From positions 1 to 49,771 of the IMG/VR virus record IMGVR_UViG_3300048927_000742: a stretch of DNA of 49,771 bases; one strand, written 5' to 3'. Under the pieces are notes generated by a model. That model had not been told where the DNA came from. It searched no databases and saw nothing but the letters and a program-made list of their open reading frames with translations. The stretch comes from a virus. The first letter of the stretch is position 1. Each line of letters opens with the position of its first letter. The position numbers and the translations under genes are program-made. Positions 26,039 to 31,386 of the stretch are shown here, piece after piece.

Positions 26039-26497
26039 ATGCCCAACCTCAACCCGAAGCAGCAGCGGTTCGTCGCTGAGTACCTGAAGGACCAGAACGG
26101 CGCCAAGGCAGCCGTCCGGGCGGGGTACGCCAAGGCAACCGCCAGGCAGCAAGCAAGCCGCCTGTTAACAAATGCTGACATCGCTGCTGCTGTTAACAAG
26201 GGACACGCCCGGGTCGCCAAGAAGGCGGAGATCACCGTCGAGTCGCTCGCCCGAGAGCTGGAGCAGGCCCGCACGCTGGCCATCAAGGAGAAGCAGGTGA
26301 GCGCGGCAGTGGCCGCCACCATGGGCAAGGGAAAGCTGGCCGGCCTGCTGGTAGAGCGCCGGCATCACACGGGCGCCGTAGGCACCTACGACCTGACGAA
26401 GCTGAGCGAAGATGACCTCGACCGCCTTGAAACGATCCTCGGTCCGCTTGCCGACGCTGGCGGAGATCCGAGCGGAGAGGGCGAGACGGGCGGCTGA
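26039..26497 (+). CDS. terS: terminase small subunit
   Basis: A 152-aa protein of the Terminase_2 type: LNPKQQRFVAEYLKDQNGAK, AAVRAGYAKATARQQASRLL (helix-turn-helix that recognises pac/cos DNA), then NADIAAAVNKGHARVAKKAE and a helical oligomerisation region. The C-terminus is acidic/Gly-rich (DDLDRLETILGPLADAG). The ATG at 26039 is used because the signature begins directly after it. It overlaps the large subunit gene by 86 bases in another frame. Confidence 0.9.
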   Translation: MPNLNPKQQRFVAEYLKDQNGAKAAVRAGYAKATARQQASRLLTNADIAAAVNKGHARVAKKAEITVESLARELEQARTLAIKEKQVSAAVAATMGKGKLAGLLVERRHHTGAVGTYDLTKLSEDDLDRLETILGPLADAGGDPSGEGETGG

Positions 26498-27980
26498 GGC
26501 CGAGCGGCGGCGCATCGCGGAGAACGTCGAGGGCATCCGCGCCAGGTCGCAGTCCCTGGAGGGCTTCATCCGGGAGCATTGGCACATCCTGGAGCCGGTC
26601 AGGCAGCTGAAGTTCGGCTGGGCGCTGCGGGCAATGTGTCGCCACCTGGAGGCGGTGACAGAGGGCAGGATCCAGTTCCTGCTGATGACCGTGCCCCCGG
26701 GCATGATGAAGTCGCTCCTGATGGTCTTCTGGACCGCATGGGAGTGGGGCCCGGTCGGTAGGCCTGACCTGCAGACGCTGGCCACCTCCTACAGCCAGCC
26801 GAATGTGCTGCGTGACAACCTGAAGCTGCGGCGCCTCATCGAGAGCGACCAGTTCCAGGCCGCTTGGCCGATGAAGCTCCGTGGCGACCAGAACGCCAAG
26901 GGCAAGTTCGAGAACACCGGCAACGGCTTCAGCGAGGCCCGGCCCTTCAGCTCGATGACTGGTGGCCGCGGCGACCGGGTCAAGGTCGACGATCCACACA
27001 GCACCGAGACGGCCGAGAGCGACGCCGAGCGCAAGACCACGGTCCGCATCTTCCGCGAGGGCATCACCGACCGCCTCAACGACATCACCTCATCGGCGAT
27101 GGTCATCATCATGCAGCGCCTGCACCAGCAGGACGTGGCAGCGGTGGCCATGGATCTGGACCTCGGGTTCGTGCACCTCAACCTCCCTATGGAGTTCGAG
27201 GCCGAGCGCACCGACAAGGACGGGAAGAAGACCGGCGGGCCGTGCCGCACCTACGTGGGCGGGGAGCTGTTCTTCGAGGACCCTCGCACGCAGGACGGCG
27301 AGCTGCTGTTCCCCGAGCGCTTCCCGCGCGCCGAGATCGATCGTCTGAAGCGGGCGAAGGGCTCATACGCCTACGCCGGCCAGTACCAGCAGCGGCCCAC
27401 GCCGCGCGACGGCGGATCGTTCAAGCGGGAATGGTTCGAGGTCGTGGACGCGGCTCCGGCCATCTCCACGGCCCGCAAGGTGCGCCGATGGGACTTCGCC
27501 GCCACGGACCCGAAGAAGAAGACCAGCAGCGATCCCGACTACACGGTGGGCCTGCTGCTGGGCGAGAGCGGGGGCATCTATTACGTGCTCGACGTGGTGC
27601 GCGACCAGGTGTCACCCGCCGGCGTGGAGCGGATGCTGAAGAACACCGCGCTGCAGGACGGCAGGACGATCAAGGTCCGCATCCCGCAGGACCCAGGCGC
27701 CGCCGGCAAGTCCAACGCCGCGCACCAGGTGAAGCTCCTGGCAGGCTGGGACATCAAGGCAGCAATCGAGTCCGGATCCAAGGAAGTCCGCGCGACACCG
27801 GTGGAGGCGCAGGCCGAGGCCGGGAACATCAAGCTGGTGGCTGGCCCCTGGGTCGCCGCCTTCCTCGATGAGATCGCCGAGTTCCCCAACGCAAAGCACG
27901 ACGACCAGGTGGACGCGCTATCCGGCGCATTCGCTGAGCTGGTCACTGGCAGCACCTACAACCTTGGAAGCGCACTCTGA
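26412..27980 (+). CDS. terL: terminase large subunit
   Basis: A 522-aa packaging motor and nuclease. The ATPase domain has a Walker A-like LMTVPPGMMKS (91-101), the strand LQTLATSYSQPNVLRD, and the Walker B region near GRGDRVKVDDPHSTETAES. The C-terminal RNase H-like nuclease has RRWDFAATDPKKKTSSDPDY and NAKHDDQVDALSGAFAELV with the metal-binding aspartates. Length and order are standard. The N-terminal ~45 residues are very basic/helical and overlap the small-subunit gene, so a later start cannot be excluded. The end overlaps the portal ATG by one base. Confidence 0.95.
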   Translation: MTSTALKRSSVRLPTLAEIRAERARRAAEAERRRIAENVEGIRARSQSLEGFIREHWHILEPVRQLKFGWALRAMCRHLEAVTEGRIQFLLMTVPPGMMKSLLMVFWTAWEWGPVGRPDLQTLATSYSQPNVLRDNLKLRRLIESDQFQAAWPMKLRGDQNAKGKFENTGNGFSEARPFSSMTGGRGDRVKVDDPHSTETAESDAERKTTVRIFREGITDRLNDITSSAMVIIMQRLHQQDVAAVAMDLDLGFVHLNLPMEFEAERTDKDGKKTGGPCRTYVGGELFFEDPRTQDGELLFPERFPRAEIDRLKRAKGSYAYAGQYQQRPTPRDGGSFKREWFEVVDAAPAISTARKVRRWDFAATDPKKKTSSDPDYTVGLLLGESGGIYYVLDVVRDQVSPAGVERMLKNTALQDGRTIKVRIPQDPGAAGKSNAAHQVKLLAGWDIKAAIESGSKEVRATPVEAQAEAGNIKLVAGPWVAAFLDEIAEFPNAKHDDQVDALSGAFAELVTGSTYNLGSAL

Positions 27981-29815
27981 TGGGCAAGCTCGCCACACTT
28001 CGCGACGGGCTGGTAAACCTGGTCGCCAATCTGGGCACCGGCCGCGACAAGGCGGCGCATTCGCACTACGGCCTGGCCCTGCTGTCGGACGCTGACCTGT
28101 CCAATGCCTACCGCGGCACGTGGCTGGCCAGGAAGATCATTGATATCCCCGCGTTGGACTCTGTGCGGAACTGGCGCAGCTGGAACGCCGATCAGGCGGA
28201 GATCAGCGCGCTGGAGGCCGAGGAGACGCGGCTGGGCTTGAAGGTCAAGCTGCTGGAGGTGCACACCAAGGCACGACTGTTCGGTGGCGCGGCGTTGTAC
28301 ATCGGCACCGGCGATTCGGATCCGTCCAAGCCGCTGGACCCGGCACGCCTGGGCAAGCAAGGCATCAAGCACCTCAACGTGCTGACCAAGCGCATGCTCA
28401 CCGCTGGCGAAAAGGATCTTGATGCCGAGTCGCCAGACTTCGGCAAGCCGGCCCACTACACGCTGTCGTCGTCGCTCGGAGGCCAGGTCAAGATCCATCC
28501 CTCGCGCCTGGTGATCCTGCACGGGGCCCACCGGCCGGATCCGGACCTCGATGGCGGCGATGGCTGGGGCGACCCGGTGCTGCTGGCCATCAGCGATGCG
28601 GTCAAGCAAGCCGACAGCACCAGCGCCAACATCGCCAGCTTGGTCTTTGAGGCCAAGGTCGATGTGCTGAACATCCCCAACCTGATGTCGCAGCTGGCAG
28701 ATCCTGCCTACGAGGCGCAGCTGCTCCAGCGCCTGCAGCTCGCGGCGATGGCCAAGGGCATCAACGGCATGCTGGTCCTGGACGGCGAGGAGACCTACAA
28801 CCAGAAGACGGCCAACTTCACCGGCCTCACCGATGTGCTGCTGGCCTTCCTGCAGCAGGTCTCCGGCGCGGCTGACATCCCGCTGACGCGGCTGCTTGGC
28901 CAGTCGCCCGGCGGCTTGAACAGCACCGGCGACAACGACATCCGGAACTACTACGACCGGATCCGTTCGGGCCAGGAGCTGACGCTGCAGCCCGCGCTGG
29001 CGGTGCTGGACGAGTGCCTGATCTATTCGGCACTGGGCCGCCGGCCGAAGGAGGCGTTCTACAACTGGCGGAGCCTGTGGCAGACCACGGACACCGAGCG
29101 CGCGACCATCGGCAAGACCACAGCCGACACGATCAAGACGATCGCCGACACCGGGCTTATCCCAGATGACGTGCTGTCCAAGGTCGCGGTCAACATGCTC
29201 ACCGAAGCAGGGATCGCGCCAGGACTTGAGTCCGAAATGGACGAGTTCGAGGCCGAGAACCCGGACTGGCAGGACGAGAAGGACGAAGAGGAGCGCGTGG
29301 CCGCCACGCTGGCAGCCCAGCAGCACGGCCAGCAAGTCACGGACTCAATGCCGCGGCCGCTGTATGTGCGTCGCGACGTGCTCAACGGAGCCGAGATACT
29401 GGCCTGGGCCAAGTCCCAGGGCTTCGAGACCACGCTCCCGGCAGACGACCTACACGTGACCATCGCCTACAGCCGTGCTCCGGTGGACTGGATGAAGGCT
29501 GGCAGCGACTGGGCCTCGGGCGAGGACGGTCGCACCACGATCAAGCCCGGCGGCGCGCGTCTCATCGAGAAGTTCGGCGGCGGCGCGGTAGTGCTGCTGT
29601 TCAACAGCTCGGAGCTGTCCTGGCGGCACGAGACTATCAAGGAAGCCGGGGCGTCCTGGGATTGGGCAGACTATCAGCCGCACATCACGCTTACCTACGA
29701 GCCTGGCGACGTCGACCTTAATGTCGTCGAGCCGTATCGCGGTGCGATCGAGCTAGGGCCGGAGATCTTCCAAGCGATCGACGAAAACTGGCGAGCCGGG
29801 ATCGAGGAATCCTGA
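27980..29815 (+). CDS. portal protein fused to Acb1-like anti-CBASS 2H phosphoesterase
   Basis: A 611-aa two-part protein. Residues ~1-440 are a portal of the DUF1073/phage_portal_3 family (YRGTWLARKIIDIPALDSVR, TRLLGQSPGGLNSTGDNDIR). Residues ~460-611 form a 2H phosphoesterase domain with two HxT motifs: H492-V-T494 in DLHVTIAYSRAP and H568-I-T570 in YQPHITLTYEPGD, plus RPLYVRRDVLNGAEILAW before them and E595/W604 after. Acb1, known from T4, cleaves cyclic di- and trinucleotide signals of CBASS immunity and has portal-fused relatives. So the portal gene also carries an immune-evasion domain. Both His-x-Thr motifs are intact. Confidence 0.88.
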   Translation: MGKLATLRDGLVNLVANLGTGRDKAAHSHYGLALLSDADLSNAYRGTWLARKIIDIPALDSVRNWRSWNADQAEISALEAEETRLGLKVKLLEVHTKARLFGGAALYIGTGDSDPSKPLDPARLGKQGIKHLNVLTKRMLTAGEKDLDAESPDFGKPAHYTLSSSLGGQVKIHPSRLVILHGAHRPDPDLDGGDGWGDPVLLAISDAVKQADSTSANIASLVFEAKVDVLNIPNLMSQLADPAYEAQLLQRLQLAAMAKGINGMLVLDGEETYNQKTANFTGLTDVLLAFLQQVSGAADIPLTRLLGQSPGGLNSTGDNDIRNYYDRIRSGQELTLQPALAVLDECLIYSALGRRPKEAFYNWRSLWQTTDTERATIGKTTADTIKTIADTGLIPDDVLSKVAVNMLTEAGIAPGLESEMDEFEAENPDWQDEKDEEERVAATLAAQQHGQQVTDSMPRPLYVRRDVLNGAEILAWAKSQGFETTLPADDLHVTIAYSRAPVDWMKAGSDWASGEDGRTTIKPGGARLIEKFGGGAVVLLFNSSELSWRHETIKEAGASWDWADYQPHITLTYEPGDVDLNVVEPYRGAIELGPEIFQAIDENWRAGIEES

Positions 29816-29835: not shown

Positions 29836-30153
29836 TCAAGCCGTGGCGAGTGAGGGGACCAAGGCTCGCAGCGTGGCCAGCTCCTTAACGCTACCAATTA
29901 CGGTGGCGCCGGTGTGCTCCATTGATCCAAGCAGTGCCAAGTCATGAGCCGGAGCAATTGCCGCCCTAATCCGGGCTGCAATCTGTTCACGCGTTGCTGT
30001 ACTGCTGATTAGCCAAAACGAGGTTGGCTCGTACCACCAGTGGTCGCCGCACACTGCTCTTACGGCTTCAACTAAGGCGTCATAGCGAGCGCTGTATTCA
30101 CGGCCGCCGATAACGACTTCCTTGATTCGGAAGGTAATCCAGTAAGTAGCCAT
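29836..30153 (-). CDS. Cas2/SinR-fold-like small protein, antisense accessory gene
   Basis: A 105-aa protein read leftward inside the rightward structural operon. The start at 30153 has AGGGAA upstream. It begins YWITFRIKEVVIGGREYSAR and continues ARYDALVEAVRAVCGDHWWY, EPTSFWLISSTATREQIAAR, the beta-alpha-beta ferredoxin pattern with the W-[YH] and T-x-x-W/F-L-I strand seen in SinR/Cas2/VapD-like proteins. It lacks the early catalytic Asp of Cas2. Own orientation and start suggest an accessory gene added after the portal. RNA- or DNA-binding is possible; no partner is adjacent. Confidence 0.6.
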   Translation of the reverse strand: MATYWITFRIKEVVIGGREYSARYDALVEAVRAVCGDHWWYEPTSFWLISSTATREQIAARIRAAIAPAHDLALLGSMEHTGATVIGSVKELATLRALVPSLATA

Positions 30154-30261: not shown

Positions 30262-31386
30262 ATGTTCCTCACCGATCGAGTCTCGGTCTCGGCGCCACGC
30301 CGGACCGCGGACGGCTACCTCGTGGCTGACGCCAAGGTGGCGCGCACGGGCATCCAGGAATACCTGGGCTCGGAAGTCGGCAAGCCCGACATGCCCATCG
30401 TGCGGCTCTACCGGCCCCCGGAGGAGGTGTTCTCCAAGGACGCCATGCACAGCTACGCCTATCGGCCCATGACCGTCGAACACCCGGCGGCCATGGTCGA
30501 TGCCAGTACGTGGCGCGCTGTGTCCGTTGGCCAAACAGGCGCCGAGGTGGTGCGCGACGGCGAGTTCGTCCGCGTGCCGCTGGTGCTCATGGACTCGGCC
30601 GCGGTGAAAGCCTGGGATTCGGGTAAGCGCGAGCTTTCCATGGGCTACACCTCCGAGATCGTCTTCCAGGACGGCATGACACCCGATGGCCAGCCATACG
30701 ACGCCATCCAGACCAACCTCCGAATGAACCATCTCGCGCTCGTCGATCGTGCGCGCGGCGGCAACCAACTACGCATCGGGGATGGGCGCGCCCCCGGTGA
30801 CAAGGATCGCGCCGACAACCCAACGAGGAACCACACCATGAGCGACACCAAGACCCGGACCGTCATGGTCGATGGGCTGCCGGTCGAGTGCACCGACGCC
30901 AGCGCCATCGCCATCGACAAGCTGCAGCGTCAACTCAACGACGCCGCAGCCTCGGCCACCGCCAAGGACACGGCCCACACCGCCGCCATCGCCGCCAAGG
31001 ATGCGGAGATCGCCAAGCGCGATGCATCGATTGACGACCTGAAGTCGAAAGTGCTCGACGCGGCCGCGCTGGACGCCCGCGTGCAGGAGCGTTCGGCCCT
31101 GGTGACCAAGGCCAAGTCTCTGCACGACGCCGACTACACCGGCAAGTCCGACATGGACATCCGCAAGGCAGTGCTGGTCGCCAAGCTCGGCGACGCTGCG
31201 GTGGCTGGCAAGTCCGACGCCTACGTCGAGGCGCGTTTCGACGGACTGGCAGACGGCGTGAAGCTGGTCGATCCCGTCGCCCGCGCACTCGCCGATGGCG
31301 CCCGCACCCCCGTAGCCGACCACGGCTACAGCGAATCGGTCCGCCGCCTGGCGCTGGGCCCGAACTACAAGCCGCAGGAGGCCTAA
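30262..31386 (+). CDS. DUF2213 prohead protease-scaffold protein
   Basis: A 374-aa protein. The N-terminal ~180 residues are a DUF2213 domain (VSVSAPRRTADGYLVADAKV, YRPMTVEHPAAMVDASTW, KRELSMGYTSEIVFQDG, RMNHLALVDRARGGN). The H-P and S-x-G-Y-x-S elements are like those of prohead serine proteases. A linker leads to a helical, Ala/Lys/Asp-rich C-terminal region (IAAKDAEIAKRDASIDDLKS) with scaffold character. It precedes the cement and capsid genes as expected. ATG at 30262 (GGAG upstream) is preferred over 30217. Confidence 0.8.
   Translation: MFLTDRVSVSAPRRTADGYLVADAKVARTGIQEYLGSEVGKPDMPIVRLYRPPEEVFSKDAMHSYAYRPMTVEHPAAMVDASTWRAVSVGQTGAEVVRDGEFVRVPLVLMDSAAVKAWDSGKRELSMGYTSEIVFQDGMTPDGQPYDAIQTNLRMNHLALVDRARGGNQLRIGDGRAPGDKDRADNPTRNHTMSDTKTRTVMVDGLPVECTDASAIAIDKLQRQLNDAAASATAKDTAHTAAIAAKDAEIAKRDASIDDLKSKVLDAAALDARVQERSALVTKAKSLHDADYTGKSDMDIRKAVLVAKLGDAAVAGKSDAYVEARFDGLADGVKLVDPVARALADGARTPVADHGYSESVRRLALGPNYKPQEA
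30838..31386 (+). CDS. possible nested scaffold protein (internal start)
   Basis: An in-frame ATG at 30838 (MSDTKTRTVMVDGLPVECTD) lies exactly at the border between the protease domain and the coiled-coil part of the DUF2213 gene and has its own GAGGAA eight bases upstream. Internal initiation would yield a 182-aa scaffold identical to the C-terminus, as lambda Nu3 lies within C. The good ribosome site in the middle of the gene is the evidence; expression is unproven. Confidence 0.5.
   Translation: MSDTKTRTVMVDGLPVECTDASAIAIDKLQRQLNDAAASATAKDTAHTAAIAAKDAEIAKRDASIDDLKSKVLDAAALDARVQERSALVTKAKSLHDADYTGKSDMDIRKAVLVAKLGDAAVAGKSDAYVEARFDGLADGVKLVDPVARALADGARTPVADHGYSESVRRLALGPNYKPQEA

Follow-up and report, generated by a model that had tools for sequence, protein, structure and literature searches.

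Acb1 was defined in 2022 by Hobbs et al. among phage enzymes that act on the cyclic oligonucleotides of CBASS (cyclic oligonucleotide-based antiphage signaling systems), and T4 Acb1 and nine further members cleaved 3'3'-cGAMP and cAAA (PMC9117128). In the T4 enzyme, Y12, W74, F107 and W147 are base-stacking aromatics and E141 contacts adenine N6; its activity first appears some 15 min after infection, at the same late stage at which CBASS sets in, and it leaves rings larger than three bases (for example cA4) undegraded (PMC9117128). The text of that study makes no mention of portals, and prophage members are present in its tree. Fusions of 2H domains to portals had been predicted by Iyer et al. 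in 2017 to counter nucleotide signaling (PMC5512222), and the passages on such fusions in their 2022 survey repeat the prediction, name SMODS systems, and propose head packaging and injection (PMC9503650). Here we examined one such portal protein, encoded in a viral DNA of 49,771 nucleotides (IMG/VR record IMGVR_UViG_3300048927_000742, hereafter the window), which carries an Acb1-type domain at its C terminus. The portal-Acb1 fusion and the anti-signaling hypothesis are therefore already published as predictions. The open papers searched held no experiments on a portal-fused Acb1, and our literature search returned no demonstrated virion-carried anti-CBASS enzyme.

The Acb1-type domain of the portal protein

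By sequence, predicted fold and catalytic residues, the C-terminal domain is a genuine member of the Acb1 family. The Pfam Acb1 profile PF23474 matched residues 460 to 605 with an E value of 3.6e-44 and a score of 150 bits against a cutoff of 27 bits, whereas the LigT profiles stayed below their cutoffs (LigT_PEase, 17.2 versus 23.3 bits; 2_5_RNA_ligase2, 16.8 versus 27 bits). The Acb1 crystal structures 7t26 and 7t27 were also found by sequence search with the domain. Using an alignment of 21 domains from the fetched loci, AlphaFold2 gave a domain model with a predicted local distance difference test score (pLDDT) of 85.8 and a predicted template modelling (TM) score of 0.81; without an alignment, the single sequence gave a pLDDT of 40. 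The top PDB fold match of the predicted model in Foldseek was FBB1 Acb1, 7t26 (TM score 0.72 by query and 0.81 by target, E value 6.6e-9). In that order FBB1 Acb1 (7t26/7t27) stood above a Burkholderia phage BCSR5 protein, itself deposited as Acb1, and E. coli LigT, and among viral structure models the best-named fold match was again Acb1. PADLOC, which lists defence and not anti-defence proteins, returned no match for the domain. The features of the locus are as follows.

27980..29815, + strand: portal protein with C-terminal Acb1 domain, 611 amino acids (open frame; Pfam; PHROG 146 portal over residues 3-605; 8hds)
28097..29137, + strand: portal core (PF06381), residues 40-386 (Pfam)
29138..29341, + strand: portal tail end and variable linker rich in acidic residues, Ala and Gln, residues 387-454, where domain-less portals terminate
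29342..29359, + strand: junction motif D-[AS]-x-P-R (DSMPRP in the window, residues 455-460), kept at the start of fused domains
29357..29794, + strand: Acb1 domain (PF23474), residues 460-605 (Pfam, predicted fold)
29453..29461, + strand: catalytic motif 1, H492-V-T494, equivalent to T4 Acb1 H44/T46 (alignment)
29681..29689, + strand: catalytic motif 2, H568-I-T570, equivalent to T4 Acb1 H113/T115 (alignment)
26412..27980, + strand: terminase large subunit, directly upstream of the portal in the same head gene cluster (Pfam, PHROG)
30262..31386, + strand: head maturation protease/scaffold (DUF2213), the next head gene (Pfam, PHROG)

Alignment with T4 Acb1 placed Y12 at Y462, H44 at H492, T46 at T494, F107 at W562, H113 at H568, T115 at T570 and W147 at W604. 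Because both window pairs stand in register with the T4 pairs, their HxT pattern is not fortuitous; another triplet of this form (HET, residues 550 to 552) is not conserved. An earlier note on this DNA, made from the letters alone, had picked out exactly these two motifs within the last ~150 residues (residues 455 to 611) and read them as an Acb1 domain covalently fused to the portal. The motif residues and the boundaries proved correct, profile, fold and catalytic residues agree on the fusion, and the structure prediction that the note proposed as a check returned an Acb1 crystal structure (7t26) as top match with both His/Thr pairs in register.

In a set of 26 nonredundant fused domains, which average 54% pairwise identity, together with 8 stand-alone Acb1 proteins, Y462, H492, T494 and H568 are invariant and position 570 is Thr or Ser. 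Both catalytic pairs are kept in all 36 of the 36 fused domains, again with Thr or Ser last. Pairwise ratios of nonsynonymous to synonymous substitution ranged from 0.07 to 0.40 in the domain and from 0.07 to 0.38 in the portal core; thus, the domain is maintained by selection and is not decaying.

The remainder of the protein is a portal. Phage_portal_3 (DUF1073) matched residues 40 to 386 with an E value of 2.4e-108 (Pfam), and the position of the gene between the terminase large subunit and the DUF2213 protease is consistent with that identity (Pfam/PHROG). The best solved relative is the portal of Pseudanabaena phage Pam3 (8hds; E value 4e-157 across residues 8 to 608). We set the start of the DUF2213 gene at 30262 from the sequence MFLTDRVSVS, which is kept in relatives.

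Exchange of the domain between portals

The domain is optional, exchangeable cargo on a normal portal. In Xanthomonas-type prophages (L009-L012, L016, L017), the portal ends at about 456 to 463 amino acids, in the linker, and its core is 82 to 84% identical to that of the window. An apparent open frame with one TGA in the Xanthomonas loci was discarded as a candidate, as it is merely the portal stop followed by the protease gene in frame. Comparison of a fused locus (L006) with a bare one (L016) showed 95.5% DNA identity across 3.3 kb on the 5' side, ending inside the linker, and 94.6% across 2.5 kb on the 3' side, starting just before the portal stop; between these flanks, a 479-nucleotide module of L006 is swapped for 38 nucleotides in L016.

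On the portal-core tree, the fused or bare state changes by gain or loss at least six times. The window groups with the Xanthomonas set on the core tree and with L005, L020 and L021 on the domain tree, and each data set rejects the grouping of the other in the approximately unbiased test (P values of 2.5e-5 and 9.7e-4, which are somewhat generous as the groups were picked after the trees had been inspected). The conflict stands on identities alone, because core and domain values disagree: relative to the window, L006 is 84% identical in the core and 58% in the domain, L020 is 69% and 86%, and L030 is 24% and 58%. All fused domains form a single clade, with the T4-like and roseophage stand-alone Acb1 proteins outside it; therefore, the fusion probably arose once and was then spread between portals and lost. 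Since the portal stays constant while the module comes and goes, there are near-isogenic phages that differ in its presence, and these natural pairs make the 2017 and 2022 computational prediction cleanly and easily testable.

Separate arrangements also occur. In Synechococcus phage Yong-M3-232 (L041:158-2144), Acb1 is a separate open reading frame (ORF) overlapping the portal end, and the sister phage Ssp-JY40 (L065) has the fusion. The split apparently arose by tandem duplication at the portal/Acb1 junction relative to Ssp-JY40, and the tandem repeat may be an assembly error. In Edwardsiella phage ZHS, a stand-alone Acb1 lies directly before the portal. Labels of "prohead protease" in ZHS and Roseobacter phage DSS3P8 had suggested Acb1 fused to a protease, a candidate that we rejected as misannotation; the genes (L038:4004-4456 in DSS3P8, L040:2116-2715 in ZHS) encode stand-alone Acb1 proteins of 150 to 200 amino acids.

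The slot between portal and protease is variable in its own right. In the window it holds a 105-amino-acid ORF on the opposite strand (29836-30153, - strand), and in relatives it holds an opposite-strand gene (L011/L017), an HNH endonuclease (L019) or another inserted head-type ORF (L007/L008/L014). Because this cargo is unrelated among relatives, we regard the slot as an insertion hotspot.

Distribution and likely host

About 33 of 50,697 GenBank phage records match at least 80% of the portal length, a count that includes Pam3 as well as ZHS with its separate portal and Acb1 genes; those examined carry the Acb1 domain. Other phage records align only to about residue 420 to 460 of the window portal. 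Phages with fused portals infect Pseudomonas, Rhizobium, Sinorhizobium, Aminobacter, Synechococcus and Pseudanabaena, and the full-length fused portal is also found in many prophages. A temperate phage of xanthomonads is the most likely identity of the window, because its closest prophages lie in genomes of Xanthomonas arboricola, X. floridensis and Stenotrophomonas panacihumi. The gene set of the window (a left-end integrase, RecE, a methyltransferase, a replication initiator, DnaB, a tape measure and a J-type tip) fits a lambda-like siphophage.

Every above-cutoff Acb1 match in the sampled genomes (247 from the likely host family and 398 from its phylum) lay in a long portal-containing frame. 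Weak Acb1-like matches in other proteobacterial genomes were set aside, being below the cutoff and attributable to ThpR-type RNA cyclic phosphodiesterases (CPDases). An SMODS nucleotidyltransferase scored above its cutoff in 20 of the 247 sampled family genomes, and CBASS targets for an Acb1 exist within this family.

Two variants were noted beside these. One frame (L028:1054-3477) encodes an 808-amino-acid form with about 200 extra residues N-terminal of the portal core, for which Pfam gave no match, plus the Acb1 domain. Rhizobium and Agrobacterium plasmids carry a stand-alone Acb1 homologue (L069:5016-5432 on plasmid pC5.7c, and matches H213-H220) annotated as "phage prohead protein" and lying near NUDIX and toxin-antitoxin genes; it is possibly a plasmid-borne anti-CBASS gene under a misleading name.

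Possible function and comparison with known systems

We consider it probable that the domain is an active Acb1-type cyclic-oligonucleotide hydrolase, made on late portal subunits, that blocks CBASS in the producing cell. The portal subunit would bear, at the end of its tail, a folded 2H phosphoesterase capable of catalysis, translated with every subunit in the late phase, when heads are built and CBASS fires. Whether on free or surplus subunits or within portal rings, the domain would open cyclic di- and trinucleotides that contain adenine, cutting 3' of adenosine, and this cleavage would keep CBASS effectors off until lysis. The place of the portal in the head cluster suggests that it is a late gene in this phage. 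Late synthesis would be suitable timing, because T4 Acb1 activity and CBASS onset are late and CBASS is reported to be triggered by the phage Bas13 prohead protease, itself a protein of the head (cited in PMC12409349). The earlier note had contrasted the fusion with an Acb1 made only as an early protein, which does not fit the activity of the T4 enzyme at about 15 min (PMC9117128). Activity of the fused domain would mean that an assembly protein which the phage needs doubles as an immune-evasion enzyme, and it would tie counter-defence to the time of head making.

Several observations weigh against this hydrolase reading. The adenine-contacting E141 of T4 Acb1 corresponds to Gln598, a placement that is secure because an invariant Glu (138 in T4, 595 in the window) lies nine residues from the Trp in both proteins. 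Position 598 is Glu in 20 of the 26 fused domains, Ala in some relatives and Gln in 2 of the 8 stand-alone proteins; since it varies among stand-alone members, we did not use this contact as a defining Acb1 feature. W74 has no clear counterpart, its position being Glu in a gapped, poorly aligned loop. Therefore, base preference may differ, and "intact", the word of the earlier note, holds for the catalytic tetrad, but E141 is replaced by Gln and W74 lacks a clear equivalent. No SMODS match was seen in the 4 lysogens checked, which is uninformative given the 8% background. We know of no assayed enzyme from the portal-fused clade, and other 2H enzymes act on RNA ends. The last point raises an alternative substrate: RNA 2',3'-cyclic phosphate ends, as in the repair of nuclease-cut tRNA, or other signals such as those of type III CRISPR. 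LigT/CPDase folds belong to the 2H superfamily and also appear among the fold matches of the domain, and relatives carry an "RNA ligase" annotation. We nevertheless think such a substrate improbable, as the Acb1 profile and fold outscore all LigT/CPDase profiles, the Acb1-type Y12 and aromatic 107 are kept (Y462, W562), no RNA ligase or kinase occurs among the ~25 window ORFs searched, and T4 Acb1 does not break down cA4 or other rings above three bases.

Where the domain sits in the particle bears on two further explanations. The portal of phage E217, a distant homologue of the window portal (E value 8e-16), has a C terminus that extends into the head, with residues 529 to 765 not built (PMC10329688). 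By homology, the Acb1 domain would lie inside the head above the portal and not in the virion neck, the imprecise location given by the earlier note. In assembled portals it would thus point into the head, with about 12 copies per virion carried along, which we judge to matter less than what the domain does in the producing cell. Podovirus-type portals bear a DNA-touching C-terminal barrel at this place (PMC10329688), and the domain could be a structural extension with a crown or DNA-contact role in which catalysis is unimportant. That is very unlikely, given near-identical portals that lack the domain, catalytic residues invariant in all 36 fused domains (Thr or Ser at the last position), and its occurrence as a separate ORF in the closely related phage Yong-M3-232.

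It is more plausible, but still unlikely, that the domain serves as an effector delivered by the virion. It would then enter the head attached to the portal, be set free either by the maturation protease or together with the DNA, and act at the start of the next infection, as Iyer et al. proposed in their treatment of portal and MuF fusions. Being fused to the portal, the domain is likely to be present in the virion. The inward-projecting C terminus of E217 suits such delivery, as does the junction motif: D-A-x-P-R is nearly invariant directly after the otherwise free linker (D and P in 25 of the 26 fused domains each) and was not present in the stand-alone Acb1 proteins compared. The motif may cap the domain structurally, serve for docking or mark a site of processing. 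Furthermore, 8hds was outside the top 50 Foldseek matches although its sequence includes a 45% identical domain, which suggests that the domain (residues 466 to 621) is not modelled in 8hds and would agree with its being flexible in, or missing from, Pam3 virions; this absence comes without a control that the library holds 8hds and cannot separate disorder from cleavage. Against delivery, the portal remains with the particle, CBASS acts late, and release as a fragment, raised in the earlier note, found no positive support: there is no demonstrated cleavage site or fragment and no conserved internal start from which a free domain could be translated (M457 of DSMPR is not conserved, with no consistent ribosome-binding site). 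The most specific version, in which the portal is a built-in device for delivering or staging an immune-signal nuclease, twelve head-internal Acb1 domains are cut free at DAxPR during maturation and enter the next host with the DNA, and anti-CBASS protection is thus in place before phage gene expression, is unlikely.

The window portal can be set beside further known cases. The layout and the proposed anti-immunity role are those that Iyer et al. described for 2H fusions to portal or MuF; as far as their sections on these fusions go, the surveys (PMC5512222, PMC9503650) predate or do not name Acb1 and hold no module-swap evidence or catalytic register. The stand-alone T4 and FBB1 Acb1 proteins (7t26/7t27, PMC9117128) share with the window domain the 2H fold, both HxT motifs in register, Y12, the aromatic at 107 and W147, but they are free proteins of about 152 amino acids with 31 to 35% identity, with E141 where the window has Gln and with a W74 that has no clear match. 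The Pam3 portal has, like the window, a full-length portal with an Acb1 domain (motifs HVT and HIS), but it is 44% identical overall, belongs to a cyanobacterial myophage and ends its second motif in Ser. Thus, the portal sequence of a solved virion already includes an Acb1 domain, under a deposited name that reads only "portal protein."
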